Assembly (NCBI GenBank): GCA_017521465.1
Contig: JAFXCN010000004.1
Coordinates: 1-63,978, forward strand
From: Clostridia bacterium
GTDB lineage: Bacteria > Bacillota > Clostridia > TANB77 > UBA1234
Direction of reading: 5' to 3'
Length of the DNA: 63,978 nt
Shown here: positions 1,330 through 33,173 of the stretch, piece by piece
How positions within the stretch are numbered: position 1 is the stretch's first letter
Layout of the letters: every line of letters starts with the position of its first letter
Position numbers and translations under genes: made by a program
The notes under the pieces: generated by a model
Databases searched by the model: none
Told to the model about the DNA's origin: nothing
Seen by the model: the letters and a program-made list of their open reading frames with translations, nothing else

Positions 1330-1343
1330 TGTTTTACATGCAT

Positions 1344-3768: not shown

Positions 3769-3855
3769 TTTTAAAAACTCCCCCATTCTTTTTTCTTTAG
3801 TGACTTGTTTATTATATTTCTCATTGGAATAATTTGGCAACAAAAACTCGTCGCA

Positions 3856-3906
3856 AATTACGACAATTCTCCCTTTTTTACGCAAAAAAGGGAGGTTACC
3901 CTCCCT
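3856..3906 (-). terminator. terminator of the small membrane-protein pair
   Basis: On the minus strand, GGGAGGGTAACCTCCC is followed by TTTTTTTGCG just after the stop of the 87-residue gene. Confidence 0.65.
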
Positions 3907-4159
3907 TAATTGCCATGATTGCCGAAATTACGACACTCAGCCCTAGCACAATCCAGAAAATTACCGGCGCTACGGCATGGAATGCCACGAGACCAAGAAA
4001 GAAGAAAAAAGTTTTGAAGAGCATACCGATAAAGCTTTTTCCTTCGTCCCGAGACAGAAGCCACGAGATTACAATCCACAATGCGATTAGTACGTACGGT
4101 CCAGGATTTGCAATCACATCCTCAAAGAATTCAACTACTCCAGAAAAAAAGCGCTCCAT
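3896..4159 (-). CDS. 87-residue membrane protein, unknown function
   Basis: I recognise no family. Two or three hydrophobic stretches are visible: YVLIALWIVISWLL at about 22-35, MLFKTFFFFLGLVAF at about 46-60, and VIFWIVLGLSVVISAIMAI to the C-terminus. Between the first two is a short charged loop (SRDEGKS). Its ATG overlaps the stop of the preceding 58-residue gene (TAATG), so the two are probably translationally coupled. Codons such as CGG, CTG and GCC are more frequent than in topA or spoIVA. It belongs to the group of compositionally distinct genes in the window. Confidence 0.7.
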   Translation of the reverse strand: MERFFSGVVEFFEDVIANPGPYVLIALWIVISWLLSRDEGKSFIGMLFKTFFFFLGLVAFHAVAPVIFWIVLGLSVVISAIMAIKGG

Positions 4160-4335
4160 TAGTAAATCATGCCTCCTTCAAAGACAAGTCCTATGATAAT
4201 CAAACCACCGACAATAGCTCCAATCACAAAGGTTAAGCAGCCACAGCCACGACGCCGATCGCGATTCCCAAAAAGCAAAGGAATCCACCAATATGATGAG
4301 CCGCTAACCAGCAAAACAAGTGCCAACAGCCACAT
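4159..4335 (-). CDS. 58-residue membrane protein, unknown function
   Basis: A short gene read directly from the sequence. It begins MWLLALVLLVSGSSYWWIPL, has a basic and cysteine stretch (NRDRRRGCGC), then a second hydrophobic segment (LTFVIGAIVGGLIIIGLVF), and ends GGMIY. A GGAGGT site lies upstream of the ATG. The TAA stop overlaps the ATG of the next gene as TAATG. A consensus promoter lies 35 bases upstream. Together these make a credible two-gene operon of membrane miniproteins. The function is unknown. Confidence 0.7.
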   Translation of the reverse strand: MWLLALVLLVSGSSYWWIPLLFGNRDRRRGCGCLTFVIGAIVGGLIIIGLVFEGGMIY

Positions 4336-4369
4336 ATATACCTACCTCCTACAAATTCAATCCACATTA

Positions 4370-4398
4370 ATTATATCATATTTTATGTATACTTTCAA
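4370..4398 (-). promoter_or_regulatory. sigma-A-type promoter of the small membrane-protein pair
   Basis: On the minus strand, TTGAAA (4393-4398), a 17-base spacer, then TATAAT (4370-4375). Confidence 0.75.
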
Positions 4399-4427
4399 TG
4401 TTTATTTCGAAAGAACGCCGCCATCTA

Positions 4428-5906
4428 TTACAATATTATACAGATTAATCCACCGCTTCCCTCATTTATTATCTTTTCTAAAGTCTCTTGCAATTTACAT
4501 TGTGCATCTTCCGGCATTTTATATAATTTATTTTGCAATCCTTCATTTACTAATTCATGTAAAGACTTTCCAAATATATTAGATTTCCATATTTGAGTTG
4601 GGTCTTCTTCAAATTCTTTCATTAAATAATTAACTAATTCTTCTGATTGTTTTTCACTTCCAACTATTGGAGAAATTTCTGTTTCTATATCTGCTTTCAC
4701 GATGTGCAAGCTTGGTGCGTGCGCGCGAAGTCTTACTCCAAATTTTGAACCTTGTTTTATTATCTCTGGTTCTTCTAAAGATAATTCATCCATATTAGGA
4801 GTAACTATTCCATATCCTTTTCGTTTTACATCATTTAAAGCAAGTGCTATTTTGTCATAACTTTTTTTGCTTTGTGCAAGTTCTGCAACTATTTTAAATA
4901 AATCCCCCTCTTCTTTTACTTCTATACCAGATATTTCTGTTAAAACTTTATAAAACAAATCTTTATCTAAATCTAATTCTAATACAATTCTTCCAGTATC
5001 AAGTTTTATCTCTCTTATTATTGTCCTACTTATTATCTCATTCTCTGCAAGTTTTTTTAAAACATTATCTGCTTGCCTTAAATTATTTACATCTTTAAAT
5101 TGATTCTTTAATATATCTAAAATTGATTTTTTTAACCAATGTTCTTCATTTAAAATATCTGTCCAGCTTGGCATATTTACTAATATTTCATTTATTGGAA
5201 ATTCAAGTAATATCTTTTCTAGTATTGTTTCTATATCAATATCTCTTAAATTTGCACAATCAATAGCAACAACCGGAACATCATATTTTTTCTTCAATTC
5301 TTTTGCAAGTATTATACTTTCGTTTGAATTTGGCTTGCTCGTGTTCAAAATTATTACAAAAGGTTTGCCTTGTAATTTTAATTCTTTTACAACTCTTTCT
5401 TCAGCGTCTATATATTCCTCTCTCGGAATATCAGTTACACTTCCATCCGTAGTAATTAAAAGACCTATGGTAGAGTGCTCATTAATAACTTTCTTTGTAC
5501 CAATCTCTGCTGCATCTTCAAACGGAATCTCTTCATTAAACCAAGGTGTACGAACCATACGAGGGAGATCACCTTCCATATATCCTAATGCATTTTTAAT
5601 TAAATATCCTACACAATCAACCATTCTTGTTCTAAATTTTATATTTTCACCTACTGTAATTTCAACAGCTTCATTTGGTATAAATTTAGGTTCTGTCGTC
5701 ATTATAGTTCTTCCGTTTGAACTTTGAGGCAATTCATCTACAGCTCTTTCTTTCTTATATTCTTCGTTAATATTTGGTATAACAGCTACTTCCATAAACT
5801 TTTTAATAAATGTAGATTTTCCTGTGCGCACTGGTCCAACAACACCTATATAAATATCTCCTCCAGTTCTTCCCGCAATATCTTGGTATATATTGTAATT
5901 TTCCAT
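4428..5906 (-). CDS. spoIVA: stage IV sporulation protein A, coat morphogenetic ATPase
   Basis: SpoIVA is the ATPase that polymerises on the forespore surface and anchors the coat basement layer. The protein is 492 residues, the usual family length. The Walker A motif GPVRTGKST puts its lysine at residue 30. A LITTDGSVTDIPREEY segment and the conserved C-terminal half ending SGGLICIIL are present. I start at MENYNIYQDI because GGAGGG lies upstream. A start 11 codons earlier has no ribosome site. It shows the organism forms endospores. It is preceded by the terminator of the glycosyltransferase gene. Confidence 0.96.
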   Translation of the reverse strand: MENYNIYQDIAGRTGGDIYIGVVGPVRTGKSTFIKKFMEVAVIPNINEEYKKERAVDELPQSSNGRTIMTTEPKFIPNEAVEITVGENIKFRTRMVDCVGYLIKNALGYMEGDLPRMVRTPWFNEEIPFEDAAEIGTKKVINEHSTIGLLITTDGSVTDIPREEYIDAEERVVKELKLQGKPFVIILNTSKPNSNESIILAKELKKKYDVPVVAIDCANLRDIDIETILEKILLEFPINEILVNMPSWTDILNEEHWLKKSILDILKNQFKDVNNLRQADNVLKKLAENEIISRTIIREIKLDTGRIVLELDLDKDLFYKVLTEISGIEVKEEGDLFKIVAELAQSKKSYDKIALALNDVKRKGYGIVTPNMDELSLEEPEIIKQGSKFGVRLRAHAPSLHIVKADIETEISPIVGSEKQSEELVNYLMKEFEEDPTQIWKSNIFGKSLHELVNEGLQNKLYKMPEDAQCKLQETLEKIINEGSGGLICIIL

Positions 5907-5983
5907 CAAATTACCCTCCTTTAATATGTGTTTGTACACTTATCGTTTAGTAATATATATTAGAGGGATTAGTTTTTTATTAC

Positions 5984-6021
5984 AAAAAAAGACTAAGATT
6001 TAAAAATCTTAGTCTTTTTTT
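5984..6021. terminator. bidirectional terminator after the GT4 gene
   Basis: GACTAAGATTT and AAATCTTAGTC arms (5991-6014) are flanked by runs of A and T, directly after the glycosyltransferase stop. Confidence 0.8.
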
Positions 6022-7359
6022 CTATATTGTTCCTTTTATTTTTCTTTTCATTGGATTTTGTAAAACATTAATTTCCGTATCAGTTGTATAAGTTGTAATT
6101 GTAGTATCCTTTCCATCAACCATAGTTGCAGTTCCTAAACTTTCTGATTCTGCTAATTTTGCAAATTTAACTTTTTCAGCCGATGCTTTTGCTTGTTTTA
6201 TTGTGTCTTTATATACTTTCATAGTATTCTTTGAAATTGTTTCCCAATTAAATTCTTTTACAACTTTTTCTCTAGCATTTTTAGCTATTTGAGTACATAG
6301 TTGTTCATTAAATAAAACTTCTAATATTGAGTCTGCAAGAGAATTTGGATTTCCCGCATATGATTTCATTCCATCAATTCCATGAGAAACTATTTCATTT
6401 AATCCACCTGCATCTGATACTACTGTTGCAGCCCCAGCAAGCATTCCTTCAAGTGCAACTATTCCAAATGGTTCATATAAACTTGGGAAAGTTGCAACAT
6501 CTATAGCTTTATACATTTTTGTTATTTGTACATCATTTAAATATCCTGTGAAATACACTTTTTGAGAAATTCCCAAATGTTCAGCTAAGCCTTTTAGTTC
6601 ATCCATAAATGGACCACGACCAGCTATTACAAATTTAACATTTGGATAATTAGCTAAAATCTTTGGAGCAGCTTGGAATAATATTTGAATTCCTTTTTCA
6701 TTAACTATTCTACCTGCAAAGAAAACTATTTTTTCATGGTCTGCAGCATAGTTTCTTCTAAATTCCATATCTCTTTCTTGGTTATCAAATTTGTTTATAT
6801 TAATTCCATTTGATACAACATGAATGTTTTCTATTGGCTTTCCAAAAAGATTGCTTATTTCATTCTTCATAAAGTTACTATTACATATAACATTTCCAGC
6901 TTCATATGTTAATAACCATTCAACATCATTAACATATCCTTGTGATTTATCATGTATCCCCTTATTTCTTCCACTTTCAGTTGCATGAATTGTTGCAACC
7001 AATGGCAATTTATATGTTCTTTTCAATGCTCTGGCAGCGTAAGCAACAAGCCAATCATGCGCATGTAACACATCAAACTTACCAAATTCTTTTATTACAT
7101 CTGCAGCTTTTTCAATCATGCAGAAGTTAAGTTGCATTACCCAATCAATCAGATTGTTTGCATTTATTGGATAGTTTGTAACTCTATGTACATATACGTC
7201 TCCATCTCTTTCAAACTCTTTTGTCTCACCTTCTTGATATGTTATTACATGTACTTCATGACCTTGCTTTGCAAAGCTGTGTGATAAATCATGCACAACC
7301 CTCGCAATCCCTCCAACTATTCTTGGCGGGTACTCCCATGATAGCATCATAATTCTCAT
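6022..7359 (-). CDS. GT4 glycosyltransferase, glycogen-synthase-like
   Basis: A 445-residue GT-B glycosyltransferase that probably elongates alpha-1,4-glucan from a nucleotide glucose. The N-terminus MLSWEYPPRIVGGIARVVHDL matches the glycogen-synthase type of GT4, with HAHDWL and the donor-site EPFGIVALE motif near residue 305. About 45 residues after the catalytic domain form a poorly conserved tail. It is divergent from the DUF4912 and GH57 genes, which supports a role in glucan storage. AAGGAGG precedes the ATG. The donor (ADP- or UDP-glucose) cannot be told from sequence. Confidence 0.85.
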   Translation of the reverse strand: MRIMMLSWEYPPRIVGGIARVVHDLSHSFAKQGHEVHVITYQEGETKEFERDGDVYVHRVTNYPINANNLIDWVMQLNFCMIEKAADVIKEFGKFDVLHAHDWLVAYAARALKRTYKLPLVATIHATESGRNKGIHDKSQGYVNDVEWLLTYEAGNVICNSNFMKNEISNLFGKPIENIHVVSNGININKFDNQERDMEFRRNYAADHEKIVFFAGRIVNEKGIQILFQAAPKILANYPNVKFVIAGRGPFMDELKGLAEHLGISQKVYFTGYLNDVQITKMYKAIDVATFPSLYEPFGIVALEGMLAGAATVVSDAGGLNEIVSHGIDGMKSYAGNPNSLADSILEVLFNEQLCTQIAKNAREKVVKEFNWETISKNTMKVYKDTIKQAKASAEKVKFAKLAESESLGTATMVDGKDTTITTYTTDTEINVLQNPMKRKIKGTI

Positions 7360-7512
7360 AAAATGTTTCCTCCTTAAAACTTTATCTTACGTTTACTTCC
7401 TTACGGAAATAAGTATTTTACCGCACTTAACTTATTAGTAAATTAATTGTATACAAACTTTATTTTTTTGTAAATAGTTTTAAAAAAAATAATATCTTTT
7501 TGTCATTTTTTA

Positions 7513-7541
7513 TTGATATTTATTTTTTTATAGTATAGAAT
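7513..7541 (+). promoter_or_regulatory. possible promoter of the DUF4912-GH57 pair
   Basis: TTGATA (7513-7518), a 17-base spacer and TAGAAT (7536-7541) lie 65 bases before the start codon. The match is only moderate in an AT-rich gap. Confidence 0.4.
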
Positions 7542-7605
7542 ATTTTATTATAGTAGTGAAATAATGTGTATTCGAAAGATAAAAATTTTAAGGAGGCATA
7601 TTGTA

Positions 7606-8151
7606 GTGCATTTGTTAAAATCTGAGTATTACGATTTACCAATTAAATACGATCAAACTTTAATCAGATTATTAGTCCAATCACCAACTCGCATGTACGC
7701 ATATTGGGAAGTATCTGATGATACTATGAAATATTTTTCTAATAATTTTCACAATTATTCTGACTGCGTTCCTGCTTTAAAGATTACTAATATAACAAAA
7801 AATTATTCATATGTTATACCAGTTGATCCTTTTGCTAATAACTACTATATAGATGTTGAAGATACTGGTTGCGATTATAAAATAGAACTTGGAAGAACTA
7901 AAGATAATAATTTTTTGAACATATATACATCGAACAATATAACAATGCCTATCTTCTCTAGAACTAATGATAACGCAAATGGTTTTGCTGATTCTGACGA
8001 AGTACTATTTGGAAATTATTTATGTATTGCAGATAAAAAGAAAATAAAGGTATATACAAATAAAGAAAGCAGAAAATATTTTCAAAATCAAACACACACA
8101 GACTTTGAAAATATTACTTCTAGTGATATACCAAAACCTATTGGAGGTTAA
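7606..8151 (+). CDS. DUF4912 domain protein
   Basis: A 181-residue protein with the DUF4912 signature, including LVQSPTRMYAYWEVSDDTM near the N-terminus. The domain is often found beside glycogen synthase and GH57 branching enzyme genes, and probably has a carbohydrate-binding fold. The start is the GTG nine bases after AAGGAGG. An ATG 14 codons earlier would place that site inside the gene. Its stop lies two bases before the GH57 ATG, and the GH57 ribosome site is inside this gene, so they are co-translated. Confidence 0.8.
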   Translation: MHLLKSEYYDLPIKYDQTLIRLLVQSPTRMYAYWEVSDDTMKYFSNNFHNYSDCVPALKITNITKNYSYVIPVDPFANNYYIDVEDTGCDYKIELGRTKDNNFLNIYTSNNITMPIFSRTNDNANGFADSDEVLFGNYLCIADKKKIKVYTNKESRKYFQNQTHTDFENITSSDIPKPIGG

Positions 8152-8152
8152 T

Positions 8153-9745
8153 ATGGCATTTAAAGGTTATTTAAATTTAGTATTACATGCTCATTTGCCT
8201 TACGTTAGGCATCCTGAGAGCGAGGAATATATTGAGGAAAGATGGCTATTTGAAGCTATTTCTGAAACATATATTCCTCTTTTAATTTATTTTAAAAAGC
8301 TGGTAGAAGAAAATGTTCAATTCAGATTAACAATGAACATTTCTCCTCCACTCATCACGATGTTAAAAGATGATTTACTTCAAAAACGTTATTTGAGATA
8401 TTTAGTAGAAAGAATCTGGCTTGCTAGAAAAGAAATGTATCGCACCAAAAATACAAACAAAGACGTCAACGATTTAGCACAATTTTATTTCTATCAATTC
8501 AAAGATTTTTATAGAGTATATAAAAGAGAATATAACTGCGATTTAGTAAATGCATTTAAGTACTTTCAAGATATCGGTGTATTAGAAATCATCGCTTGTC
8601 CTGCTACTCACGGTTTTTTACCACTTCTAAATGTTACTCCAAATGCTGTACGAGCACAAATTTCAAATGGAGTTCAAGTATATAAAGAAGCTTTTGGCAG
8701 ACAACCAAATGGAATGTGGCTTTCAGAATGCGCATACATTCCCGAAGTCGAAAGTGCGCTTAACGAATTTGGAATAAAATATATAATATTAGAAACACAC
8801 GGAATTACAAATGCTGTTCCTACTCCTGTTTACGGAACTTTATCCCCAATCATTTCTCCAAACGGAGTAGCCGCTTTCGGTAGAGATTTAGAAAGTTCAA
8901 AACAGGTTTGGAGTTCAATTTGCGGATATCCCGGCGATCCAAATTATAGAGAATTCTATAAAGATATTGGATACGAATCTGAATGGGAATATATAAAACC
9001 TTTCGTTTCCAAAAGCGGTCATCGTGTAGATACCGGAATTAAATATCATAAAATTACTGGCAAAACAAACGATAAAGAATATTATAAACCAGATAATGCA
9101 AAGGCTGTTGCTGAGATGCAAGCAGATCATTTTATCTCTTCAAGAATTGAACAAATTAATTCAGCGGCAACGAATATGGTCATTCCTCCTGTTGTTACTT
9201 GTCCTTACGACGCTGAACTATATGGCCACTGGTGGTTTGAAGGTCCATACTGGTTATATGTTTTGTTTAAAAAGATTCATTATAACCAAGATACATTTAA
9301 ATTAATAACACCAAGTGAATATTTATCTACGTATCCTAATATTCAAGAATGCAAACCTGCAATTTCTACATGGGGCGCACATGGATACAACGAAGTATGG
9401 ATTAATCCAGGAAATGATTATATATATCGTCATCTTCATCACGCTGCCGAAAGAATGACATATTTGGCTAATATACTAAAAGAACCTACCGAAACAGAAC
9501 GTCGTGCATTAAACCAATGCGCTAGAGAACTACTTCTTGCACAAAGCAGTGATTGGCCTTTTATAATAACTATGAATACAATGGTTGAATACGCTCATAA
9601 AAGAGTTAAAGATCATATTGGCCGTTTTAACGCTTTAGCTGATATGATAGACAAAAAAGAAATTAACGAAGATTATTTAGAAAACATAGAATTTAAAGAT
9701 AAAATATTTCCAAATATAGATTACTCTATTTTTTCTACAAATTAA
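8153..9745 (+). CDS. GH57 1,4-alpha-glucan branching enzyme (DUF1957 type)
   Basis: A 530-residue GH57 enzyme that makes alpha-1,6 branches in glycogen. It begins LNLVLHAHLPYVRHPE, the family opening motif. The probable nucleophile is the glutamate in GMWLSECAYIPE, and the probable acid is the aspartate in TCPYDAELYGHWWFEG. A helical C-terminal DUF1957-like domain follows. It starts at the ATG six bases after GGAGG. With the GT4 enzyme and the phosphorylase downstream it completes a synthesis, branching and degradation set. Confidence 0.93.
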   Translation: MAFKGYLNLVLHAHLPYVRHPESEEYIEERWLFEAISETYIPLLIYFKKLVEENVQFRLTMNISPPLITMLKDDLLQKRYLRYLVERIWLARKEMYRTKNTNKDVNDLAQFYFYQFKDFYRVYKREYNCDLVNAFKYFQDIGVLEIIACPATHGFLPLLNVTPNAVRAQISNGVQVYKEAFGRQPNGMWLSECAYIPEVESALNEFGIKYIILETHGITNAVPTPVYGTLSPIISPNGVAAFGRDLESSKQVWSSICGYPGDPNYREFYKDIGYESEWEYIKPFVSKSGHRVDTGIKYHKITGKTNDKEYYKPDNAKAVAEMQADHFISSRIEQINSAATNMVIPPVVTCPYDAELYGHWWFEGPYWLYVLFKKIHYNQDTFKLITPSEYLSTYPNIQECKPAISTWGAHGYNEVWINPGNDYIYRHLHHAAERMTYLANILKEPTETERRALNQCARELLLAQSSDWPFIITMNTMVEYAHKRVKDHIGRFNALADMIDKKEINEDYLENIEFKDKIFPNIDYSIFSTN

Positions 9746-23115: not shown

Positions 23116-23205
23116 AATATCCCTCTTTCATATTAAAGCTTATATGATATTAGAATACACTATTTAACTATATTTATCAACATTCAACAAATTCACGTAT
23201 TAACT

Positions 23206-23235
23206 TGACATAATTTATTTTTTGTGATATATTGT
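23206..23235 (+). promoter_or_regulatory. promoter of telA
   Basis: TTGACA (23206-23211), an 18-base spacer, TATATT (23230-23235). The TTGACATAAT string recurs in other promoters of the distinct gene set. Confidence 0.7.
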
Positions 23236-23267
23236 CAACGTAAAATTATCATTAAGGAGGTTTTTCC

Positions 23268-24410
23268 ATGCCTGGTATCGATTTCGCTCCCACTCCCGCC
23301 CCTACTGTAACTCTTGAGCTTACTGATACCTCATCGTCTATGAATAGTATGCAAGATACTACTGATACTACAGAAACCGTGACTCCATCGATTGAACCCG
23401 CTTTCTCTGAACAGGAGCTTGCTCAAATTCAATCTTTTTCTGAAAAAATTGATATTACTAATCCTGAACTTGTACTTCAATATGGTGCAGGTGCTCAAAA
23501 GAAAATTGCAGCATTCTCTGACGCTACTCTTGAACGTGTTCGGACTAAGGATAGTGGTTTTGTTGGTGACATGCTCACCGATCTTATCGGTGAGCTCAAA
23601 GGCTTCTCTACTGAAAATACGAATTTCGCCGGCAAAGGTGCCTGGAGAATTCGTCGGATGATTTCTAAGCTTAAGACGCAGTATTCCAAAGTTTCTACTA
23701 ATGTCGATAGTATTGTTGATCATCTGGAGGAGCATCAGCTCACTCTGATGAATGATATTAAGGTTCTCATTGGCCTTTATGATCGCAATCAGCTTTACTT
23801 CAAGGAACTTTCTATGTATATTAAAGCTGGTAAACAGAGACTTGAACACCTTCGTGCAACACGTCTGCAGGAACTGCATAAAGTAGCACAAAGTACCTCT
23901 GATCCTCAGGCTGCTCAAGCTTACAAGGACTATGCTGATGCTTGTGATCGCTTTGAAAAGAAGTTGCATGATCTTCTGCTCTCTCGAACTGTTGCTATGC
24001 AGTTCGCTGCACAGATTCGTTTGCTGCAAAATAACGACTCTATTCTGGTAGATAAGATTCAGTCTACTATTGTGAATACCATTCCGCTTTGGAAGAGTCA
24101 GATGGTTGTTGCTCTTGGTCTTGCTAATGCTACTAATGCTATGAGAGCTCAACGTTCTGTCACTAATATGACTAATAGTCTGCTTCGTTCTAATGCTGAA
24201 AAGCTTAAGACAAGTACTGTTGAAATTGCACGCGAATCCGAGCGCGGTATTATCGATATTGAAACTCTGGTTCATACTAATCAGATGCTCATTGATACCA
24301 TCACTGAAGTTCAGCAGATTCAGGTCGAAGGTCGCGAGCAGCGCCAAAATGCTGAAGCCGAACTTAAGTTGCTGGAAGACAACCTGAAGCAGAAATTGCT
24401 GAATGGATAA
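23268..24410 (+). CDS. telA: TelA / toxic-anion-resistance family protein
   Basis: A 380-residue TelA family protein. The first 60 residues are low-complexity (Thr, Pro, Ser). The rest is long amphipathic helix typical of the family, for example KGAWRIRRMISKLKTQYSKV and LRLLQ-like repeats up to AEAELKLLEDNLKQKLLNG. TelA proteins are linked to tellurite, antibiotic and envelope stress, and to tellurium-resistance gene clusters, but the molecular role is unclear. AAGGAGG lies before the ATG. Codons 22-360 contain no TTA, CTA or TCA. It is convergent with the VWA-ABC operon. Confidence 0.88.
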   Translation: MPGIDFAPTPAPTVTLELTDTSSSMNSMQDTTDTTETVTPSIEPAFSEQELAQIQSFSEKIDITNPELVLQYGAGAQKKIAAFSDATLERVRTKDSGFVGDMLTDLIGELKGFSTENTNFAGKGAWRIRRMISKLKTQYSKVSTNVDSIVDHLEEHQLTLMNDIKVLIGLYDRNQLYFKELSMYIKAGKQRLEHLRATRLQELHKVAQSTSDPQAAQAYKDYADACDRFEKKLHDLLLSRTVAMQFAAQIRLLQNNDSILVDKIQSTIVNTIPLWKSQMVVALGLANATNAMRAQRSVTNMTNSLLRSNAEKLKTSTVEIARESERGIIDIETLVHTNQMLIDTITEVQQIQVEGREQRQNAEAELKLLEDNLKQKLLNG

Positions 24411-24416
24411 AACTTT

Positions 24417-24446
24417 CCCCCCTAGATTTTTCTAGGGGGGATTTTT
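24417..24446 (+). terminator. telA terminator
   Basis: CCCCCCTAGA-tttt-TCTAGGGGGG followed by ATTTTTAT, seven bases after the telA stop. Confidence 0.9.
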
Positions 24447-24472
24447 ATACTCATACACACGGTATGCAAATT

Positions 24473-24518
24473 GGAAGTGCGACGAAATAGATATAAAAAT
24501 CTATTTCGTTTCACCTCC
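24473..24518 (-). repeat. 46-nt hairpin paired with 1284-1329
   Basis: On the minus strand it starts GGAGGTGAAACG and ends GCACTTCC around the same TTTTAT loop as the element at 1284-1329. The stem has two mismatches, but two other base pairs differ from the first copy by compensatory changes. It lies between the two convergent terminators. Confidence 0.65.
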
Positions 24519-24545
24519 AATTTACACACCTTTTTTCTTTGATAG

Positions 24546-24595
24546 AGAGATGTAAAAAAAAGAGGACCTTTCGGTCCTCTTTTTTTTACATCTCT
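24546..24595. terminator. terminator of the VWA-ABC operon
   Basis: A perfect 23-bp inverted repeat with an AGAGGACC-tttc-GGTCCTCT core and eight-base A and T runs. It contains the VWA stop codon. Confidence 0.9.
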
Positions 24596-26283
24596 GCATC
24601 AAACAACGTCTTCAAAATGTACGCAACATCATCGCTGGTTGCATTAATAAACGCACCCTGATTAATTTCTGCAATACGCTCAAGTTCCTTTACATCAGCT
24701 TCATAGCCAATTGTATAAATAGGAACATCACAAACGTCAATCAATTCTCTCATACTACTAAGAGAGTATCCACTCCCCGTATACCCATCACTCAAAAGAA
24801 TGATAATAGGCTTAATAGAAGAGTCTTTTTGGCGTTCTTCTTCAATCAATTTAAGAGCAATAAGCAAAGCATCGTTAGTTGCCGTACCACCATCAGCCTT
24901 CCAGCTGTCGATGGCACCAACAAAATATTCTTGTTGTTCAACTGTAAATTCACTAATAGGCAAATCAATATAAACATACGAATTATAGCTTAACAGTCCA
25001 ACCTTATTGTCTTCTCCGACATACTGCATTGCATTCTTAAGAGAATCCTTAAGAGCAGTCATTTTTCGGCCAGACATACTTCCCGACTTATCAGCAACAA
25101 AGACTGCTACAATCTTCTTGCCAGAAGCTTTCCCTTGCTTCCAGAATTCAAGGATTTCACTAATCATTCCGCCAGAATAGTTAGCAACCGTACTTTCGTA
25201 AGTTTCGTCCTTGTTGAAGCCAAGGGACGTTGCATAATTCTGTACAGAATCATTTGTCAAATACGTTCCAAAAAATTTAAGTGCCTGAAGTTCTTCTTCG
25301 GATACTTCACCAACGGAATACAAAGGATTGTCGTGACGAACTCCGAAAGGCACAAACACGAATTTCTGCTTCAAACTTTCATCATTTTCATATGCCTGAC
25401 GCTCAATCACAAAGGCATCAATTGCACCTTTCTCAACAGACTGCTTCATCTGCTGAGTAGAATAAGAAACCGCCGAAACAGTATTTTGGAAATTCGAAAA
25501 GTCAGTAGTTGCTTCCATACTCATAGGATTGTTAGAATCAAAATAGCTAAGCATAGAGATTACAAAGTTAAGACCAGTAGGATTGTTGGTAGGATTAGTA
25601 TATCCAACCGATACATCTCCTGCTTCATTCGCCTTAACAATTGTATTGACATTTACTTCACCATACTTAGTCACAAGAGCTTCATACTTACTCTTCTCAA
25701 TTACAATTCCCATCACATTACCAATAGTCTTATTCTGAACAAGTGAAATGTTAATACCATTTTCATTCATCAAAATACCATAAAGCTCATTCGCAGCAAT
25801 ATATCCTTTAGGATAATATGTTCCATTGAGAATATACTCTTCTGCAAGACTTGATTCAAGGCATCTGATTGAAACAGATACAGTTTTGCTAGTATCTTCA
25901 AGAGTAATGGCTTCAGCATTAAACTTTTTGGCAGCATCAATTACTACATCACGCAAGGAACTGCCGTTGTTTTCAATAGGAACGAAAATCTCTACATCAA
26001 TGTCACCATTACCCTTCACATCCAAATCATAATTGGCCACATCCGGCAATTCATACATAAACATAGATTGGTCAGGCACCTCATCATGAGGTGCCTGTAC
26101 CGGAATTTCGCCTTTAATAAGTTTAGAATCTCTTACATCAATATTGAACTTTTCCATATAAGAATAGGCATTTTCCTTCGTTACAGTGTTGGGTTCGTAA
26201 ACCTGAACAATATCACAAGCACAAAGAACAAATACTAAAGACACAACAATTACTGTACACAGCAGCCGTTTGAACTTGCTCAT
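24586..26283 (-). CDS. VWA-domain lipoprotein with an SBP-like N-terminal domain
   Basis: A 565-residue exported lipoprotein with signal peptide and lipobox (FVLCACDIV, Cys near residue 23). Residues about 75-375 resemble a solute-binding fold, with GYTNPTNNPTGLNFVISML and later GAIDAFVIERQAYEN. The C-terminal VWA domain (about 395-560) has an intact metal site: DKSGSMS, then GGTATNDA, then LLSDGYTGSG. Such domains usually bind a partner protein through a metal ion. It is the last gene of a six-gene operon and has its own GGAGG site. TTA, CTA and TCA codons are scarce. It probably sits outside the membrane beside the SBP-OmpA proteins. Confidence 0.88.
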   Translation of the reverse strand: MSKFKRLLCTVIVVSLVFVLCACDIVQVYEPNTVTKENAYSYMEKFNIDVRDSKLIKGEIPVQAPHDEVPDQSMFMYELPDVANYDLDVKGNGDIDVEIFVPIENNGSSLRDVVIDAAKKFNAEAITLEDTSKTVSVSIRCLESSLAEEYILNGTYYPKGYIAANELYGILMNENGINISLVQNKTIGNVMGIVIEKSKYEALVTKYGEVNVNTIVKANEAGDVSVGYTNPTNNPTGLNFVISMLSYFDSNNPMSMEATTDFSNFQNTVSAVSYSTQQMKQSVEKGAIDAFVIERQAYENDESLKQKFVFVPFGVRHDNPLYSVGEVSEEELQALKFFGTYLTNDSVQNYATSLGFNKDETYESTVANYSGGMISEILEFWKQGKASGKKIVAVFVADKSGSMSGRKMTALKDSLKNAMQYVGEDNKVGLLSYNSYVYIDLPISEFTVEQQEYFVGAIDSWKADGGTATNDALLIALKLIEEERQKDSSIKPIIILLSDGYTGSGYSLSSMRELIDVCDVPIYTIGYEADVKELERIAEINQGAFINATSDDVAYILKTLFDAEM

Positions 26284-26297
26284 TTTGTTTCCTCCTT

Positions 26298-27794
26298 TTA
26301 GTAGCCAATTACCTTAAAGAAAACTTCCGTGCGCCGATTACGCGCTCGACCCTCTTCGGTATCATTGGTATCAATAGGATTAGTATCACCATTGCCAATG
26401 ATTACAAATCGAGCCGGATCAAGTCCAAGTGCCTGCAAATATTTTGCAACACTGAGTGCACGCTTATAAGAAAAATCGACACCATCATCGCCTTGTACCT
26501 TAGCGGTATTGCCTTCAATCTGAATGTATACACCATTCAAAATTTTGGCAGTCTTGGCAAATTCATTCAACTCATCATAAGAATCTCGTGAAATCTGATA
26601 CGAATCAACTTCAAATTCAATATTTAGGGTAACACTAAGCAAAGCAGCATTATTAGAAATTTGAGTTGCCTGCTGCCTACCTTCACTAGTAAAACTAAAA
26701 GAGGTTACATCATTAGACGGATACTGTCCCATAAGCTGATTTACAAACTTATTAGTAAAAGCAGTTTCTGCTTTCTTCGGATTAGCAACTTCGCCAATAC
26801 TAATCCAAATATTTGCCATTTCTTTATACATGTCAACAGCAGTATTAGTAAGAAGATTAAAATTGTCAGCCCAAGTAGTTACCGCTGCCCCACTGCACAT
26901 TTCAGCGATTTCGTCATCAGTCATAAGGCCGAACATAGGCATTTCGCGAATAGCATTAAAATCTCTCAGATACATGCTATTTGCCTCAAAAGCACCCTGC
27001 ATAAACTTCACGATGAAGTCAGGATGTTCTTCAGCAAAATCGCTTCTGAAAACAATACCACTCAAAATAAGATTAGTACCCATACTGGTATCGAACAGAA
27101 TTCTGGAATCGGTAGAACTTGCTGCCTGAGTCAAATACGGCTCCCAAGTAGCGGCGGCATCTACACTACCAGAAAAGTATGCCACAGCAGCATCATCAGC
27201 AGTATCAAAATACACCATATTACTACGAATCTGATTAATCTGTTCAGTAGTAAGAGAAGAATTTCGAATCAGCCATTCAACAAGAGTTTGAGCTTCAGAA
27301 TAGCGAGGCACCGCAATTCGCTTGCCGACAAGGTCTTCAACTGACAAAATGTCAGAATTTGCAATGATACCGTCGCCGCCATTAGAATAGTTACTGATAT
27401 ACGGCATAATCACGCCAACACCCGCTTCGTCAAACTTAGACTGCAGGAATGCATAACGATTAATCGTATAGCCTGCACCCACAATATCACCAGAAATAAG
27501 AGCATCAGAAGAATCGTTTGCGTCATTCATAACGACATATTCGATGTAAATACCATTCCGTGCATTAATACTATCTGCAGTAGTCTTAAGGCCACCATTT
27601 GCATAAACCAAACCGTTGTAGCCAGCAAATTCATCCATGGAAATTCGCACCTTAATCGCATCAGGATTAACATATTCCTGCTTTCCATCATCCGGTTTAA
27701 GCAAATTGATAACATTGACACCGACAAAAACAAGTACAACAACCAAAATGCCACTTACAAGCATTTGGAACATGTTCTTTTTGTTCTTCCTCAT
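26298..27794 (-). CDS. membrane-anchored ABC substrate-binding protein fused to an OmpA-like domain (paralogue 1)
   Basis: A 498-residue protein. A single N-terminal hydrophobic anchor (about 9-30) without a lipobox is followed by a nitrate/sulfonate-type solute-binding domain (about 45-360). Markers are GAGYTINRYAFLQSKFDEAG and NYSNGGDGIIANSDILSVED. Residues about 385-498 are an OmpA-like peptidoglycan-binding domain, with IQIEGNTA and NPIDTNDTEEGRARNRRTEV. It is clearly paralogous to the gene at 30415-31923, with one run of 28 identical residues. OmpA domains are uncommon in single-membrane Firmicutes, and here would tie the binding protein to the wall. AAGGAGG precedes the ATG. Confidence 0.9.
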   Translation of the reverse strand: MRKNKKNMFQMLVSGILVVVLVFVGVNVINLLKPDDGKQEYVNPDAIKVRISMDEFAGYNGLVYANGGLKTTADSINARNGIYIEYVVMNDANDSSDALISGDIVGAGYTINRYAFLQSKFDEAGVGVIMPYISNYSNGGDGIIANSDILSVEDLVGKRIAVPRYSEAQTLVEWLIRNSSLTTEQINQIRSNMVYFDTADDAAVAYFSGSVDAAATWEPYLTQAASSTDSRILFDTSMGTNLILSGIVFRSDFAEEHPDFIVKFMQGAFEANSMYLRDFNAIREMPMFGLMTDDEIAEMCSGAAVTTWADNFNLLTNTAVDMYKEMANIWISIGEVANPKKAETAFTNKFVNQLMGQYPSNDVTSFSFTSEGRQQATQISNNAALLSVTLNIEFEVDSYQISRDSYDELNEFAKTAKILNGVYIQIEGNTAKVQGDDGVDFSYKRALSVAKYLQALGLDPARFVIIGNGDTNPIDTNDTEEGRARNRRTEVFFKVIGY

Positions 27795-27837
27795 GAAAGC
27801 TTCCTCCTTGTAGATTCGGTTCTTAGGTTACTACAAA

Positions 27838-28581
27838 TTACTTTGCAGTCGAACTCTGACTAGGCGTGACAAAAAGCTCAATCTCTTCGTCATCAGTTTC
27901 ATCCTCGGCACCAACGCGAAGCGCCTGAAGACTTTCGATAACACTCTGCAGACCGGGATCTTCAATATTGAAATCATCACCCATTCTAGCAACTTCATCA
28001 AGAAGCTGATCATAACGGTCAATCAATTCAGTATTGTTATCAAGAATCTCGGTAATACCACTATCTTCATCAATACTACCAGAACGATTCTTAGCAGTCT
28101 TAGCACTATGTGCAATCAACCGCTTAACAAGCTTTTTGAGGTTCTTCATAAGGAAAATCTGTACATCGTTATTGCGAGAAATAAGGAACTCCTGCGCCTT
28201 ACCATTATTAAGAGAAATCAACCGCATAAGAGCTTCTTCCTTCTTAAAAAACGAATCAATCTGATAAATGAAGTAATCAATCACACGTGCATACTCAGGA
28301 TTAGTCTTCTTGATGCCTTTAAGCTGAGACATATACGTATCAAACTGAGAGTCTTCACTCTGAAGAATACTGTTCAGCTGTGCAACCGTATCAGCATTTT
28401 CATCAGGGATTTTGGTATAAGCAAGATAGTGCGCTACGGCACTAGCGCCTACTACCAGAATCGTGACCAAGAAATTACCGAATCTTGCAGGCGAAAAAGA
28501 AAAATCATAATTGGCAAAGAAGAAAATATTACCCAAAAGAATGGCGCTATCAACAATGTGGAGCAAAGGCTTTCTTTTCAT
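27838..28581 (-). CDS. membrane-anchored coiled-coil protein, XpaC-like architecture
   Basis: A 247-residue protein. Two N-terminal hydrophobic segments (about 8-25 and 33-53) are followed by a cytoplasmic helical region: QFDTYMSQLKGIKKTNPEYA, DYFIYQIDSFFKKEEALMRL and ELIDRYDQLLDEVARMGDDF. The tail is acidic (about 220-247). I cannot assign a family. The layout resembles XpaC, which is often encoded beside TelA, and telA is nearby, so a TelA partner is plausible but unproven. It lies between the ATPase and paralogue 1 in the operon and shares their codon use. Confidence 0.75.
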   Translation of the reverse strand: MKRKPLLHIVDSAILLGNIFFFANYDFSFSPARFGNFLVTILVVGASAVAHYLAYTKIPDENADTVAQLNSILQSEDSQFDTYMSQLKGIKKTNPEYARVIDYFIYQIDSFFKKEEALMRLISLNNGKAQEFLISRNNDVQIFLMKNLKKLVKRLIAHSAKTAKNRSGSIDEDSGITEILDNNTELIDRYDQLLDEVARMGDDFNIEDPGLQSVIESLQALRVGAEDETDDEEIELFVTPSQSSTAK

Positions 28582-28598
28582 AGTCGTTCTCCTCTCTT

Positions 28599-29594
28599 TT
28601 ACTCTTGTTTTACTGCTTCAGGTACTTCTGTCACAGTTGCTGTTACATTCGTACTGGTCTTTCCTTCAATCTGTTCGCAAGACTGAACAGCAATTACTTC
28701 ATTACGCTTCGTATCCGAACCATTAAGTTCAAGTACAATAGGTTCGTTATCAACTTCATCATCAATTTCAATAAACATCGGCTGTTCGTCATCAGAAAGA
28801 ACAACGTCTTCCTTAACTTCAGCTGTAATCTTTGACTCTTCTTTTTCAGCAGCTTTTGCTTTCTTTTCAGCAATCTTTATCTTAATATTTGCGAAAAGCT
28901 GTTCAAGCCAATTTACCTTTTCAGGTTCTTTCACACTCACAGTGCCATCACCGGGCCTAAGTCTAAACTCAGGAGTAAGTTCAAGCACAGTAGCATTAAG
29001 TCCTTTTACTACATGCTCTTCATGAGTAATAACGATTTCGATTGTACCATACTTTTTTTGATGCTCTTTGATAAGTTCAACGACCAACTCGTCATTCACA
29101 TTATCAAGGGCAGAAGTCGGTTCATCGTACATAATAACAGGACTCCACTTATTAATAAGTGCACTAGCAAGACTAAGTCTCTGGTCTTGACCACCAGAAA
29201 TCTGACCAGGCAAATTATCAAGATGCTCACTAAGGCCAAGTTTTCCCAAAACAGCCTTTGCTTCTTCAACATCAGCATCAGTAGGAGTAATCTTATGGCC
29301 CTTGTATACCATCAAAGTATTTTTCAGAATATTAAGCCACGGAAAACTCATATAGTGCTGATGCATCATATGCACCAACGGAGAAGTACTCGTAAGCTTT
29401 TCTCCATTCAGAATGATATCACCAGTATACCCTTTTTCAAGCCCGGCAATAATACGCATAAGCGTACTCTTGCCTACACCAGACGGTCCAGAAAGCACAT
29501 AGATACCAGGTGTGAAGTCATATCCAAAATTGGTGAAAAGAACGTTTTCACCAAATGCCTTGTTGAAGTTTTTAACCTGCAACAGATTTTTCAT
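28599..29594 (-). CDS. ABC transporter ATPase with a C-terminal acidic extension
   Basis: A 331-residue ATPase of the nitrate/sulfonate/taurine importer type. Walker A is SGPSGVGKST, the signature is ISGGQDQR, Walker B is VIMYDEPTSALD, and the switch histidine is in VITHEEHVV. After about residue 205 there are some 125 extra residues: a Lys-rich helix (KIKIAEKKAKAAEKEESK) and then a long acidic tail. That extension is unusual for the family. I start at MKNLLQVKNF because GGAGG lies 7 bases before it. It overlaps the permease gene by 23 bases. Confidence 0.9.
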   Translation of the reverse strand: MKNLLQVKNFNKAFGENVLFTNFGYDFTPGIYVLSGPSGVGKSTLMRIIAGLEKGYTGDIILNGEKLTSTSPLVHMMHQHYMSFPWLNILKNTLMVYKGHKITPTDADVEEAKAVLGKLGLSEHLDNLPGQISGGQDQRLSLASALINKWSPVIMYDEPTSALDNVNDELVVELIKEHQKKYGTIEIVITHEEHVVKGLNATVLELTPEFRLRPGDGTVSVKEPEKVNWLEQLFANIKIKIAEKKAKAAEKEESKITAEVKEDVVLSDDEQPMFIEIDDEVDNEPIVLELNGSDTKRNEVIAVQSCEQIEGKTSTNVTATVTEVPEAVKQE

Positions 29595-30336
29595 CGCTAA
29601 ACCTCCATGCAAATGCTTTGTTCACAATTTTGTTTGCAATCTTATCAAATACGATGCCGACAACAATGATAATAACAATGGCTGCAAACACCATTGCCAT
29701 CTGACCTCTTGCCTTACCAATGTACAGAAGATGGCCCAAACCATACTGCGTATTGTTAATCTCTGCCAAAATCACATACGTCCAACCAACACTATATGAA
29801 AGGATGATAGATTTAAGCAGCGAAGGCGCAATGTATGGAATAAAACAATGCCACAGCATCCGGTTATAACTAAATCCCATCGTATACGCAGTTTCTTTCA
29901 GCTTGTCTGCTGGTTCCATACACATCTGAATCACAGATGGTAAGAAAGCAAACAGTACAGCAAGTGCAACATATGCGACTTTCATAGTTTCATCAATGCC
30001 AAGAATCAAAACCAACATAGGCGAAAAACAAGTTGGAGGAATATTTCTAAAAGAATCCACAATCGGCTTAAAAATCATTGCTACAGGTTTGTACCATGCA
30101 ATACACATTCCAAGCGGAATGGAAATCGCAGCAGCAATTGCAACGCCAGCAGTAACACGAAGGAAACTACTTCCAAGATGCTTAAAGAAAACATCCTTTT
30201 CAAAAAACTCAATAATCATATCCCAGATTTCACCTAAGTGAGGCATAAACAAGCTTTTATTTACAATTGTACTTCCGATTTCATAAAGAATCAAAAGACA
30301 CGCAATATATGCCAACCCTTTTAGCAGCTTTTTCAT
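29572..30336 (-). CDS. ABC transporter permease (SsuC/TauC-like)
   Basis: A 254-residue inner-membrane permease with about six hydrophobic segments. The cytoplasmic coupling segment (KLKETAYTMGFSYNRMLWHC) resembles the EAA loop of SsuC/TauC proteins, and the end (VVGIVFDKIANKIVNKAFAWR) is also typical. It is the only permease in the operon, so it probably acts as a homodimer with the downstream ATPase. It is fed by one or both SBP-OmpA proteins. A hairpin terminator separates it from the upstream SBP gene, so its expression may be lower. The substrate cannot be told from sequence. Confidence 0.9.
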   Translation of the reverse strand: MKKLLKGLAYIACLLILYEIGSTIVNKSLFMPHLGEIWDMIIEFFEKDVFFKHLGSSFLRVTAGVAIAAAISIPLGMCIAWYKPVAMIFKPIVDSFRNIPPTCFSPMLVLILGIDETMKVAYVALAVLFAFLPSVIQMCMEPADKLKETAYTMGFSYNRMLWHCFIPYIAPSLLKSIILSYSVGWTYVILAEINNTQYGLGHLLYIGKARGQMAMVFAAIVIIIVVGIVFDKIANKIVNKAFAWRFSDEKSVAG

Positions 30337-30370
30337 TGATATGCTTCTCCTTTCAAGGTCGCTTGAGTTG

Positions 30371-30398
30371 AAAAAAGGGGCTGGTTTTGCCCAGCCCC
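30371..30398 (-). terminator. intra-operon terminator or attenuator
   Basis: On the minus strand, GGGGCTGG and CCAGCCCC arms followed by TTTTTT lie between the SBP-OmpA stop and the permease start. It probably lowers transcription of the transporter genes relative to the binding protein. Confidence 0.8.
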
Positions 30399-30414
30399 TC
30401 CATTTATGCTTTAA

Positions 30415-31923
30415 TTAATAGCCCATCTTCGTCTTGAAGAAGATTTCTGTTCGGCGATTCTCGGCAGCAGCAGGATTTTCGCTATTTAGAGGATTAGAAT
30501 CACCATTACCCACAATAATAATTCTTTCCTCCGGAATCCCCTGCTGAATAAAATAATTCGCAATAGATTGTGCTCGCTGAGTAGAGAACTCTACAATCTG
30601 AGCTTCAGTTACGCCTTCAGCACGCTGAGAAGCGTTACCTTCAATCTGAATATAAACACCATTCAGAATCTTAGCAACCCTAACGAACTCATCAAGAGTA
30701 GAATAAGATTCTGCACGAATAGTATAAGAATTCAGGTCAAACTTAATATCTGCACTATACGAAAGCAAAGCTTCCGGAGATTCAATAATCAGCGCCTTGT
30801 CAGAAGCATCAAAAGAGCTCGGAGCAGTACTCGTTTCCTTGCCCTCATACTTGTCACGAAGCATCAGAATATACTTATCAGTAAGTGCCGTCTTGGCCTT
30901 TTCAGGATATGCATTTTCACCAATGCTCTTCCAAACATTAGCAGCCTCTGCATACATCACAACAGCACCATCATTAAGCAGCTCATAGTTCTGAGTCCAA
31001 TTAGTAAGATCAGCACCATTCGCCATGTCAATAATTTCTGCATCAGTCATCAGCTCGAACATAGGCAGCTGACGAATATAATCAAACTCATGCTTATACA
31101 TAGGAGCAGCTTCAAACAGCGCATCAATGTAATGCATCATAAACTCAGAATTATTCTCAAGGAAATCCTGACGGAAGACAATACCACTAAGAATCAGATT
31201 CGTACTCATGCTGGTATCGAAGAGAATTCTCGAATCAGTAGAGCTAGCAGCCTGAGTCAGATACGGCTCCCAAGTAGCAGCAGCATCAACCGTGCCAGCA
31301 AAGAAAGCCATAGCTGCATCGTCAGGAGTGTCAAAGTAAACCATGTCACCACGAATCTTATCCTGCTGAGCCTTAGAAAGACTAGAATTGTTCAGCAGCC
31401 ACTCAACAAGCACCTGTGCCTCGGTATAACGCGGTACACCAATCTTCTTGCCAACCAGGTCTTCAACAGAAAGGATATCACTCTTAGCAATAATACCGTC
31501 ACCACCATTACTATAGTTGGTGATGATAGGCATCACGACTTCTACGCCAGCCTTATCAAACTTGTCCTGCAGGAAAGCAAACCGGTTAACGGTATAACCA
31601 GCGCCAACAGCCTGACCGTTGATCAGTGCATTCGAAGATTCGTTAGAATCGTTCATAACAACATATTTAACGTAAATACCATGCTTTGCATTGATACTGT
31701 CAAGTGCTGTAATCAGACCACTATTAGCATCTGCCGCATTCTGATAACCAATCCACTCATCAATAATAATCACAACAGGATTATCAGGACTCATGCCAAG
31801 ACCGCTATTCTTTGCTACAGGACTGCCACTTGTAGTGGTGCTACTGCAGCCAGTAAACAGCAGCGTAAGGCACACGAGCAATGCACACATCGTAAAGATC
31901 TTTGAAAGCCTGGTCTTCTTCAT
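30415..31923 (-). CDS. substrate-binding lipoprotein fused to an OmpA-like domain (paralogue 2)
   Basis: A 502-residue protein, first gene of the operon. The lipobox LLFTGCSS puts the lipid cysteine near residue 26. The solute-binding domain (about 50-365) contains INAKHGIYVKYVVMNDSNES and KSDILSVEDLVGKKIGVPRY. The C-terminal OmpA-like domain (about 385-502) has YIQIEGNASQRA and IVGNGDSNPLNSENPAAAEN followed by RRTEIF. It lacks in-phase TTA, CTA and TCA over 445 codons. It differs from paralogue 1 in anchoring (lipid versus transmembrane helix). A perfect promoter lies about 130 bases upstream and GAGGAGG precedes the ATG. Confidence 0.92.
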   Translation of the reverse strand: MKKTRLSKIFTMCALLVCLTLLFTGCSSTTTSGSPVAKNSGLGMSPDNPVVIIIDEWIGYQNAADANSGLITALDSINAKHGIYVKYVVMNDSNESSNALINGQAVGAGYTVNRFAFLQDKFDKAGVEVVMPIITNYSNGGDGIIAKSDILSVEDLVGKKIGVPRYTEAQVLVEWLLNNSSLSKAQQDKIRGDMVYFDTPDDAAMAFFAGTVDAAATWEPYLTQAASSTDSRILFDTSMSTNLILSGIVFRQDFLENNSEFMMHYIDALFEAAPMYKHEFDYIRQLPMFELMTDAEIIDMANGADLTNWTQNYELLNDGAVVMYAEAANVWKSIGENAYPEKAKTALTDKYILMLRDKYEGKETSTAPSSFDASDKALIIESPEALLSYSADIKFDLNSYTIRAESYSTLDEFVRVAKILNGVYIQIEGNASQRAEGVTEAQIVEFSTQRAQSIANYFIQQGIPEERIIIVGNGDSNPLNSENPAAAENRRTEIFFKTKMGY

Positions 31924-32052
31924 GTTGGGTAATCCTCCTCTTTTTTGGTTTTCAAATTTTTTGTTTATACTCGTTAAGCTAAATATTACATTTTCATAAA
32001 TTACTTTCCTCCAATTCGGTTATAAGTATATATTAGATATTTCAACGGGGAC

Positions 32053-32081
32053 ATTATATCATCTTTTTTGTTTTATGTCAA
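32053..32081 (-). promoter_or_regulatory. consensus promoter of the SBP-OmpA/ABC/VWA operon
   Basis: On the minus strand, TTGACA (32076-32081), a 17-base spacer, then TATAAT (32053-32058), leaving an untranslated leader of about 120 bases. Confidence 0.9.
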
Positions 32082-32162: not shown

Positions 32163-33173
32163 TTAAATATCCCAAGTCAAAACATTGCAGTAATGCCAAA
32201 TTTCAGCAAACATCCACTCAGGGAAATGGAATCTTTCTTCTTGCTGCTTTTTAACAAATTCAAGCAAGTCAGTCTTATACTGAGTAGACCGCGCATGCCA
32301 GTCACAACACATTTCCATGATATCAACCTTTGTCATATCAATAACAGAATCATAATGCTCCGGATGATGAGAGTTGTGCTTCCAATGAAGTGCAATCGCA
32401 TCTTTCTTGATCGGACTAAGTTGAGCAGATGCATCTTTCAATGTAGTCTTGTCATTAATAATCCTAGAAAGTGCATGCATTTCATCAGTAAAACTCATTT
32501 TACTATCGTCATGAACCTGCGCCCGTTGCCTCAAAAGAGTAGCATGATTCGTTGCGCCCTCTTTAGTAAGGTAACGAATCAATTTTTCAGCACTCTTTTT
32601 CACATATTCCTTATGAATTACAGTGTCTCTGAACATCTTTTCATAATCAGTCATATAAGATTCATCCTCATGAAGCAAAAACTTCCATGTAGACTTTCTT
32701 GCACCTTCAGTATAATATTTTACATCAGAAAAACCAGTACCATTCATATAAAAAAGTCGAAGGGTCAGTGCAGGCATAACAGTTACATCATCCGTCTGAA
32801 CAAGTTGATGTTCAATTCGTAAAATTGCAGGAATTACTTCATTAGGATTACGATTATTCGTAATCAAAATCTGTGTGTTTTCAACAGGAAGATATTCTTT
32901 AAAAGAGAAACCCACATTAGAATCAGGAACTTCTTGGGCGAAAAAATATCTTACAACAAATTCTTGTGCAGCAATGCGGATTTTCTTTCCTTTAATACTT
33001 TCTTCACTTTGAAAAATATAATATGTTTCATTAGCATTTTGAGTAGAATCAATCAAAATATATTCATATGGCAAATTCTGAATTCTACAAAACTCAACTA
33101 TTTTTTCGTGCCAACTTTCTCTCAATACAAACCGAATACCAGTCTTGATAGGATCTCTGCTAAGTTTAAGCAT
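32163..33173 (-). CDS. DUF5662 domain protein, unknown function
   Basis: A 336-residue soluble protein. The C-terminal half (about 180-336) matches DUF5662 by its histidine and aspartate pattern: RQRAQVHDDSKMSF, then HWKHNSHHPEHYDS, then MEMCCDWHARS. This is reminiscent of a metal-binding HD-like hydrolase, though no activity is established. The N-terminal half (about 1-170) is unassigned. It has its own consensus promoter, an AAGGAGG site and a terminator, so it is a single-gene unit. TTA, CTA and TCA codons are largely absent, as in the neighbouring ABC operon. Confidence 0.75.
   Translation of the reverse strand: MLKLSRDPIKTGIRFVLRESWHEKIVEFCRIQNLPYEYILIDSTQNANETYYIFQSEESIKGKKIRIAAQEFVVRYFFAQEVPDSNVGFSFKEYLPVENTQILITNNRNPNEVIPAILRIEHQLVQTDDVTVMPALTLRLFYMNGTGFSDVKYYTEGARKSTWKFLLHEDESYMTDYEKMFRDTVIHKEYVKKSAEKLIRYLTKEGATNHATLLRQRAQVHDDSKMSFTDEMHALSRIINDKTTLKDASAQLSPIKKDAIALHWKHNSHHPEHYDSVIDMTKVDIMEMCCDWHARSTQYKTDLLEFVKKQQEERFHFPEWMFAEIWHYCNVLTWDI

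Follow-up and report, generated by a model that had tools for sequence, protein, structure and literature searches.

A clostridial locus that points to a possible merged envelope-maintenance system: a widespread TelA trio and a transporter whose OmpA-fused binding proteins are found otherwise almost only in giant phages

Gene content and layout of the locus

We analyzed a locus of seven genes on a 63,978-nt stretch of DNA from a Clostridia bacterium of the family UBA1234 (hereafter the window; contig JAFXCN010000004.1), which is one whole contig of a 1.4-Mb genome that is 98% complete (G000). The genes span positions 23268–31923. On the minus strand they follow in the order SBP1, permease, ATPase, CC, SBP2 and SBP-VWA, where SBP stands for substrate-binding protein and CC for a coiled-coil membrane protein, and telA lies convergent to them on the plus strand. 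An earlier reading of the sequence (the original prediction) had placed all seven genes here, and profile searches together with the sequence bear out their positions and the integrity of their domains.

telA (23268–24410, plus strand, 380 aa) encodes a canonical TelA that scores 372 bits against PF05816 (cut-off 30) and covers profile positions 1–331 of 332. Its structure model is a long helical hairpin with a mean predicted local distance difference test score (pLDDT) of 70. The low-E matches of the fold search were phage TelAs only, all from the viral library, and the PDB returned only long coiled coils. The SBP-VWA protein (24586–26283, minus strand, 565 aa) contains a VWA domain (E 3e-19) in which the residues of the metal ion-dependent adhesion site (MIDAS; D398/S400/S402, T467 and D499) are invariant among 10 homologs. 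Its N-terminal part matches SBP_bac_11 weakly, below the Pfam cut-off, with a Cohnella homolog reaching 44 bits. Together with a lipobox-like signal this agrees with the proposed lipoprotein joining a binding-protein-like domain to an intact VWA domain.

SBP1 (30415–31923) and SBP2 (26298–27794), both on the minus strand, each combine an SBP part with an OmpA-like domain (E ~1e-16 in both). The SBP parts match TIGR01728 of the NMT1/SsuA type at E 1e-22 and 3e-20, below the model's own cut-off. One of the two was expected to be a lipoprotein and the other to be membrane-anchored, and accordingly a lipobox-like signal can be read in SBP1 and an N-terminal anchor without Cys in SBP2. The permease (29572–30336, minus strand) is of the NitT/TauT/SsuC type, with matches to BPD_transp_1 (E 3e-15) and to the TauC/SsuC families. 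In the ATPase (28599–29612, minus strand; ABC_tran, E 1e-21) Walker A (GPSGVGKS), the SGGQ signature and Walker B are readable in the sequence; the protein has a long acidic C-terminal tail and its likely start is the ATG at 29594. The parts of a NitT/TauT-type importer, namely the SBP, the permease and a motif-intact ABC ATPase, are thus complete.

The model of CC (27838–28581, minus strand) shows a helical bundle preceded by two hydrophobic helices at the N terminus (pLDDT 86). In Pfam, NCBIfam and PHROG nothing was matched above cut-off, and the fold search gave generic helical bundles only (best Foldseek E 0.57); Vipp1 and CdvB2, both ESCRT-III-type chains, appeared at E > 1 only, among unrelated chains. 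Profile comparison did not support a relationship to XpaC (hhalign probability 8.5%) or to PspA (1%), the latter in comparison with a PspA-like phage protein (CC2, see below). Likewise, PF04012 did not appear among the families matched by sequence for CC or for its nine homologs. Among the seven genes there is no AAA+ ATPase partner; weak AAA matches came only from the ABC ATPase.

Promoter-like sites lie just upstream of the first genes of both transcription units and coincide with the outer ends of the stretch delimited by the original prediction. The site of the operon (32053–32081, minus strand) reads TTGACA-17-TATAAT with an extended -10 element and 12/12 matches, that of telA (23205–23233, plus strand) TTGACA-17-TATATT, likewise extended, with 11/12; both are consensus matches only. 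The total of promoter-like sites across the region is no more than expected by chance, and these two are the region's best besides the site of the adjoining DUF5662 gene. The latter gene (32163–33173) lies upstream of the operon and has its own 12/12 promoter-like site. No riboswitch or structured RNA upstream of the operon reached any Rfam gathering score.

Between the convergent units an intrinsic terminator (24416–24441) was scored as a hairpin on each strand, and a second terminator-like hairpin with T run (GAGGACC-TTTC-GGTCCTC) can be read at 24554–24587. The two terminators flank a long inverted repeat, GAAATAGAT-ATAAAA-ATCTATTTC, within a longer imperfect stem (24470–24530). A further intrinsic terminator or attenuator, GGGGCTGG-GCAAAA-CCAGCCCC-T6, lies on the minus strand at about 30371–30400 in the 78-nt gap between SBP1 and the permease; this GC-rich hairpin followed by six T has a folding energy of -27.9 kcal/mol. 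A hairpin and T run after an SBP gene is the usual sign of excess SBP production. Since a strong intrinsic terminator separates SBP1 from the permease gene, SBP1 is probably made in excess.

The GC content at third codon positions (GC3) is 0.31–0.39 in all seven genes, in comparison to 0.12–0.22 in 17 of the 18 other window genes measured; the adjoining DUF5662 gene has 0.28. telA falls within the range of the operon, so that the shared codon use noted earlier was recovered. In a second genome of the family (G009) the module has a GC content of 0.475 against 0.336 in its flanks, and in two more (G003 and G008) it lies slightly above the flanks. A foreign origin of the module is a reasonable reading of these values. 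The raised GC is found in several genera and is therefore no proof of recent transfer.

A conserved trio in Bacillota and its variants

When an alignment of SBP-VWA proteins was searched against GTDB species genomes, at least 80 loci were found, mainly in Paenibacillus, Cohnella, Ruminococcus and other Clostridia; a scan of genome contigs with one SBP-VWA sequence had found nothing, and distant members were required in the alignment. Among the matches listed, to which the following counts also refer, the loci with public names closest to the window are Clostridia metagenome-assembled genomes, mostly from gut or rumen. Outside the family of the window, 71 of the 75 loci that could be tested have CC next to SBP-VWA, and 60 of 71 have an adjacent TelA in the same orientation; SBP-OmpA occurs in none of 76. 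These fractions describe the SBP-VWA family and not all TelA loci, because the loci were chosen by SBP-VWA similarity. CC, SBP-VWA as the core gene, and TelA form a conserved, uncharacterised block in Bacillota. The window holds the same three families at one locus; it differs from the block in Paenibacillus, Cohnella, Ruminococcus and Clostridium by the SBP-OmpA transporter, with SBP2 lying between CC and VWA, and by its convergent telA, as TelA in the block is co-directional and mostly belongs to a divergent clade. In a quick TelA tree, in which long branches are present, most TelAs of the block formed this clade and the TelA of the window grouped with those of XpaC operons.

The trio was also seen in two viral contigs from IMG/VR: at 4894–8838 of an 88-kb contig (L239), with a protein resembling DUF5662 by eye nearby, and at 1323–7683 of a 251-kb contig (L240) in another gene order with genes in between.

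Relatives hold a second kind of TelA operon that contains SBP-VWA, XpaC, another SBP-like protein and TelA, in some cases with an AAA+ protein, which was identified by Pfam in one locus (G010). It shares the SBP-VWA protein with the window, and the two SBP-VWA types are homologous over most of their length (hhalign 99.7%). The simpler XpaC-TelA operons (xpaC-yaaN of Bacillus subtilis, lmo1966-lmo1967 of Listeria) resemble the locus in pairing TelA with a small membrane coiled-coil partner; they differ in that no match to XpaC (PF10112) was found in the window genome and CC is not detectably related to XpaC.

Within the family, SBP-OmpA is present in 4 of 13 genomes, with two copies each. All four carriers (G000, G009, G003 and G008) show the identical order SBP1-permease-ATPase-CC-SBP2-VWA with convergent telA. 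The linkage of the VWA lipoprotein, the coiled coil and TelA that had been predicted is therefore supported twice, by the adjacency of the trio in most of the 76 Bacillota loci listed and by the convergent telA in 4 of 4 operon genomes. TelA has diverged in G003 and G008 and is only 309 and 231 aa long there, with the rest of the operon intact. telA and the transporter are linked, yet the constraint on TelA is unequal across genomes. In G008 a protein resembling SPFH/band-7 proteins by eye lies near the module (L023, 3407–4633); band-7 proteins are listed as partners of PspA (PMC11237479).

In G000 and G009 the module occupies the same slot, with a pyruvate kinase gene on one side and a manganese catalase gene on the other. 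G001 has no transporter in this slot, and what remains of telA there encodes 148 aa. The catalase gene near the locus in these three genomes would fit a metal or oxyanion stress module, in which TelA and the metal site of the VWA domain respond to tellurite-like oxyanions or a toxic metal, while the importer deals with a ligand needed for repair; the intact MIDAS and the history of the TelA family in tellurite resistance, from which its name derives, are in line with this. The catalase is found there only in one shared chromosomal slot, however, no TerC or TerD family was detected among ten proteins scanned, and the SBPs resemble binders of organic solutes rather than of metals. We consider this explanation fairly improbable.

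The transporter and its relatives in large phages

Outside the family, a full-length SBP-OmpA protein was found in 1 of 391 genomes of the class (G290). By eye, the genes of this stretch seem to include ones for NAD salvage, a helicase, a primase and a polymerase. In the SBP alignment its row and the row of a 134-kb IMG/VR contig (L226) are identical, and for this reason a prophage is the most likely identity of the locus. Immediately upstream of the phage-type cassette in G290 (L175, G290:C2:386000-405000) genes resembling nicotinamidase, PRPP synthetase, NAMPT and NAD synthetase lie at 1314–4842, by eye an NAD-salvage cluster. As a clue to the substrate these genes were discarded, since across the compared loci no metabolic family came up repeatedly.

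The best matches in phage records came from Bacillus phage G, a gut phage, a 735-kb phage and Lak phages, with SBP2-OmpA being 48.6% identical over 89% to gp249 of phage G. There the permease (gp243), the ATPase (gp245), two coiled coils (gp246 and gp247) and two SBP-OmpA proteins (gp249 and gp250) are encoded together, the pair of SBP-OmpA genes being as in the window. An SBP-OmpA alignment from the family only found nothing in viral contigs; after distant members had been added, the order permease-ATPase-CC1-CC2-SBP-OmpA was found in 17 of 18 IMG/VR loci, some of them redundant and one of them phage G; in the 18th only the ATPase was not called. CC2 is PspA/IM30-like: PF04012 was matched at E < 1e-3 by 2 of 6 sequences in a first set and by 7 of 10 in a second, and three of the matches exceed the curated Pfam cut-off. 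In Lak phages and the 735-kb phage the genes are of the same kinds but follow the order CC1-CC2-SBP-OmpA-permease-ATPase; here CC1 and CC2 diverge strongly (12–16% identity) and were equated by position. Also for the permease and the ATPase phage homologs rank first, ahead of the ordinary bacterial ones sampled, by BLAST rank only.

The permease, ATPase and SBP-OmpA lineages are therefore shared between window and phages, whereas the phage cassette has CC1 and a PspA-like CC2 where the window has CC, and contains neither VWA nor TelA. In two Lak phages TelA was observed far from their own ABC/SBP-OmpA cassette (L186, 7832–8953; L187, 7092–8213). The transporter is rare among the bacteria sampled, with its nearest relatives in jumbo phages. 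With regard to the predicted co-occurrence of the seven genes, the trio and the linkage of telA to the operon hold, but the seven do not form an obligate unit: none of the loci sampled outside the family combines the trio with SBP-OmpA, the phage transporter lacks adjacent VWA and TelA, and the genes therefore in part occur independently.

These cassettes also bear on the simplest explanation, an ordinary NitT/TauT importer for some small organic solute, such as a sulfonate or a pyrimidine, whose SBP has been duplicated and which has CC, VWA and TelA as uncoupled neighbours. SsuABC/TauABC importers have the same SBP, permease and ATPase domain types; the motifs of the window are intact, its SBPs match SsuA and its permease TauC/SsuC, and the layout SBP1-terminator-permease is typical of importers. 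Yet SBP2 lies inside the trio between CC and VWA, four genomes keep the same arrangement with convergent telA, and the phage cassettes combine the importer with coiled-coil membrane proteins. Furthermore, the other matches in a phylum-wide sample cover the SBP part only, in reading frames of ordinary SBP length, in contrast to the window, which differs from the classical importers by the OmpA domains on its SBPs, the phage-type lineage and the association with CC. We therefore regard a plain importer as unlikely.

In a tree of SBPs with ordinary SBPs as outgroup, which leaves out the bacterial PBPB-OmpA proteins reported in PMC11237479, the eight family sequences formed one clade within the viral sequences. 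A tree with the viral sequences as a single clade was rejected by the approximately unbiased test with p-AU = 0.009, a value that is somewhat generous because the tree was a quick one and the grouping was chosen with the tree already in view. Owing to the nested position of the family clade, a transfer of the transporter from phage to bacterium is favoured, though not proven. The SBP1/SBP2 pair arose inside the family, independently of gp249/gp250.

A viral descent would also suit a domesticated, phage-derived exclusion or defence module guarding the membrane against entry of phage DNA or lysis, the more so as TelA is among the moron-type genes of phages (phrog_5890) and is carried by Lak phages. 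PADLOC, however, gave generic OmpA/MotB-like and ATPase matches only, and many chromosomes have the trio but lack the transporter, leaving such a role improbable.

Two OmpA residues contact the diaminopimelate of peptidoglycan, the Asp in G-x-T-D and the Arg in S-x-x-R-A. When the OmpA domains were aligned to the solved OmpA-like domain 6jfw, the Arg was kept in all eight family sequences; the position of the Asp is Ala or Arg in all eight and the loop length is altered. The Asp was aligned only in Lak phages and the 735-kb phage; several viral SBP-OmpA proteins have a GNTD string with an insertion, where the alignment is uncertain. With only the Arg kept, the claim of a wall tether is weakened. 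Of the wall-binding domains originally predicted, the OmpA-like domain is present, but its binding to the wall is questionable; other residues could bind.

A possible envelope-maintenance complex

Overall, these comparisons point to a merged envelope-maintenance system made of a widespread trio and a transporter whose OmpA-fused binding proteins are found otherwise almost only in giant phages. We give a probability of roughly 45% to the reading that the module is an envelope-maintenance (membrane-stress) complex joining these two units. The surface SBPs and the VWA protein would report the state of the envelope or a small solute, SBP1 being supplied in excess by means of the terminator behind its gene, and the importer would spend ATP on a small solute or on a conformational signal. 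CC would be anchored by its two membrane helices with the helical bundle in the cytoplasm, where together with the long TelA hairpin it may form a scaffold that stabilises the membrane. CC and TelA would thereby hold the place of the PspA/IM30-like protein in the phage cassettes.

This reading draws on the adjacency of the trio in Bacillota and two viral contigs, the five-gene order in phages, the PspA-like CC2, the nesting in the SBP tree, the shared codon use and the joint decay in G001. In addition, it draws on the regulation of TelA-family operons by sigma-W, as in B. subtilis xpaC-yaaN and yceC-H, two operons with TelA-family genes by annotation, belong to the sigma-W regulon (PMC3498285), on the greater nisin sensitivity of a telA (lmo1967) mutant of L. 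monocytogenes (PMC12791056), and on published PspA/Snf7-ABC operons.

Several points weigh against it. CC has no detectable profile kinship to the PspA-like CC2 or XpaC, and its fold search gave no specific match. The ABC motifs and the SBPs appear fit for ordinary import. telA is convergent to the operon and not co-transcribed with it, and since TelA is short and divergent in G003 and G008, it may be dispensable there.

Operons of PspA/Snf7 with an ABC ATPase, a permease and a PBPB-OmpA protein have already been described, and a link of membrane remodelling to solute transport was proposed (PMC11237479, mSystems 2024); TelA and VWA are absent from the main text of that paper. The window resembles these PspA/Snf7-TM operons in its ABC ATPase, permease, OmpA-fused binding protein and membrane coiled-coil protein. 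It differs in lacking, among the seven genes, a PspA/Snf7 relative recognisable by sequence and the AAA+ ATPase partner present in the reported PspA/Snf7-ABC-PBPB-OmpA examples, and it adds SBP-VWA, TelA and two SBP-OmpA paralogs. Within an incomplete literature search we found no paper naming the trio or the phage cassette, nor a description of the link between TelA, SBP-VWA and CC, the spread of the cassette through large phages or the nesting of the bacterial copies.

A more far-reaching version holds that a membrane-guarding transporter of jumbo phages was captured by a bacterium and rewired, its PspA/ESCRT-III-like cytoplasmic subunit being replaced by a host CC-TelA pair and its sensors extended by SBP-VWA. 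We regard this as rather unlikely; if true, TelA/CC would be the functional counterpart of PspA.

The block with CC and SBP-VWA provides TelA with concrete partners at the cell surface in bacteria that are in culture (Paenibacillus and Clostridium), and the exchange for a PspA-like subunit hints at what TelA may do. The envelope-maintenance reading would also offer a testable function for the five-gene cassette in phage G and, reordered with the same kinds of genes, in Lak phages.

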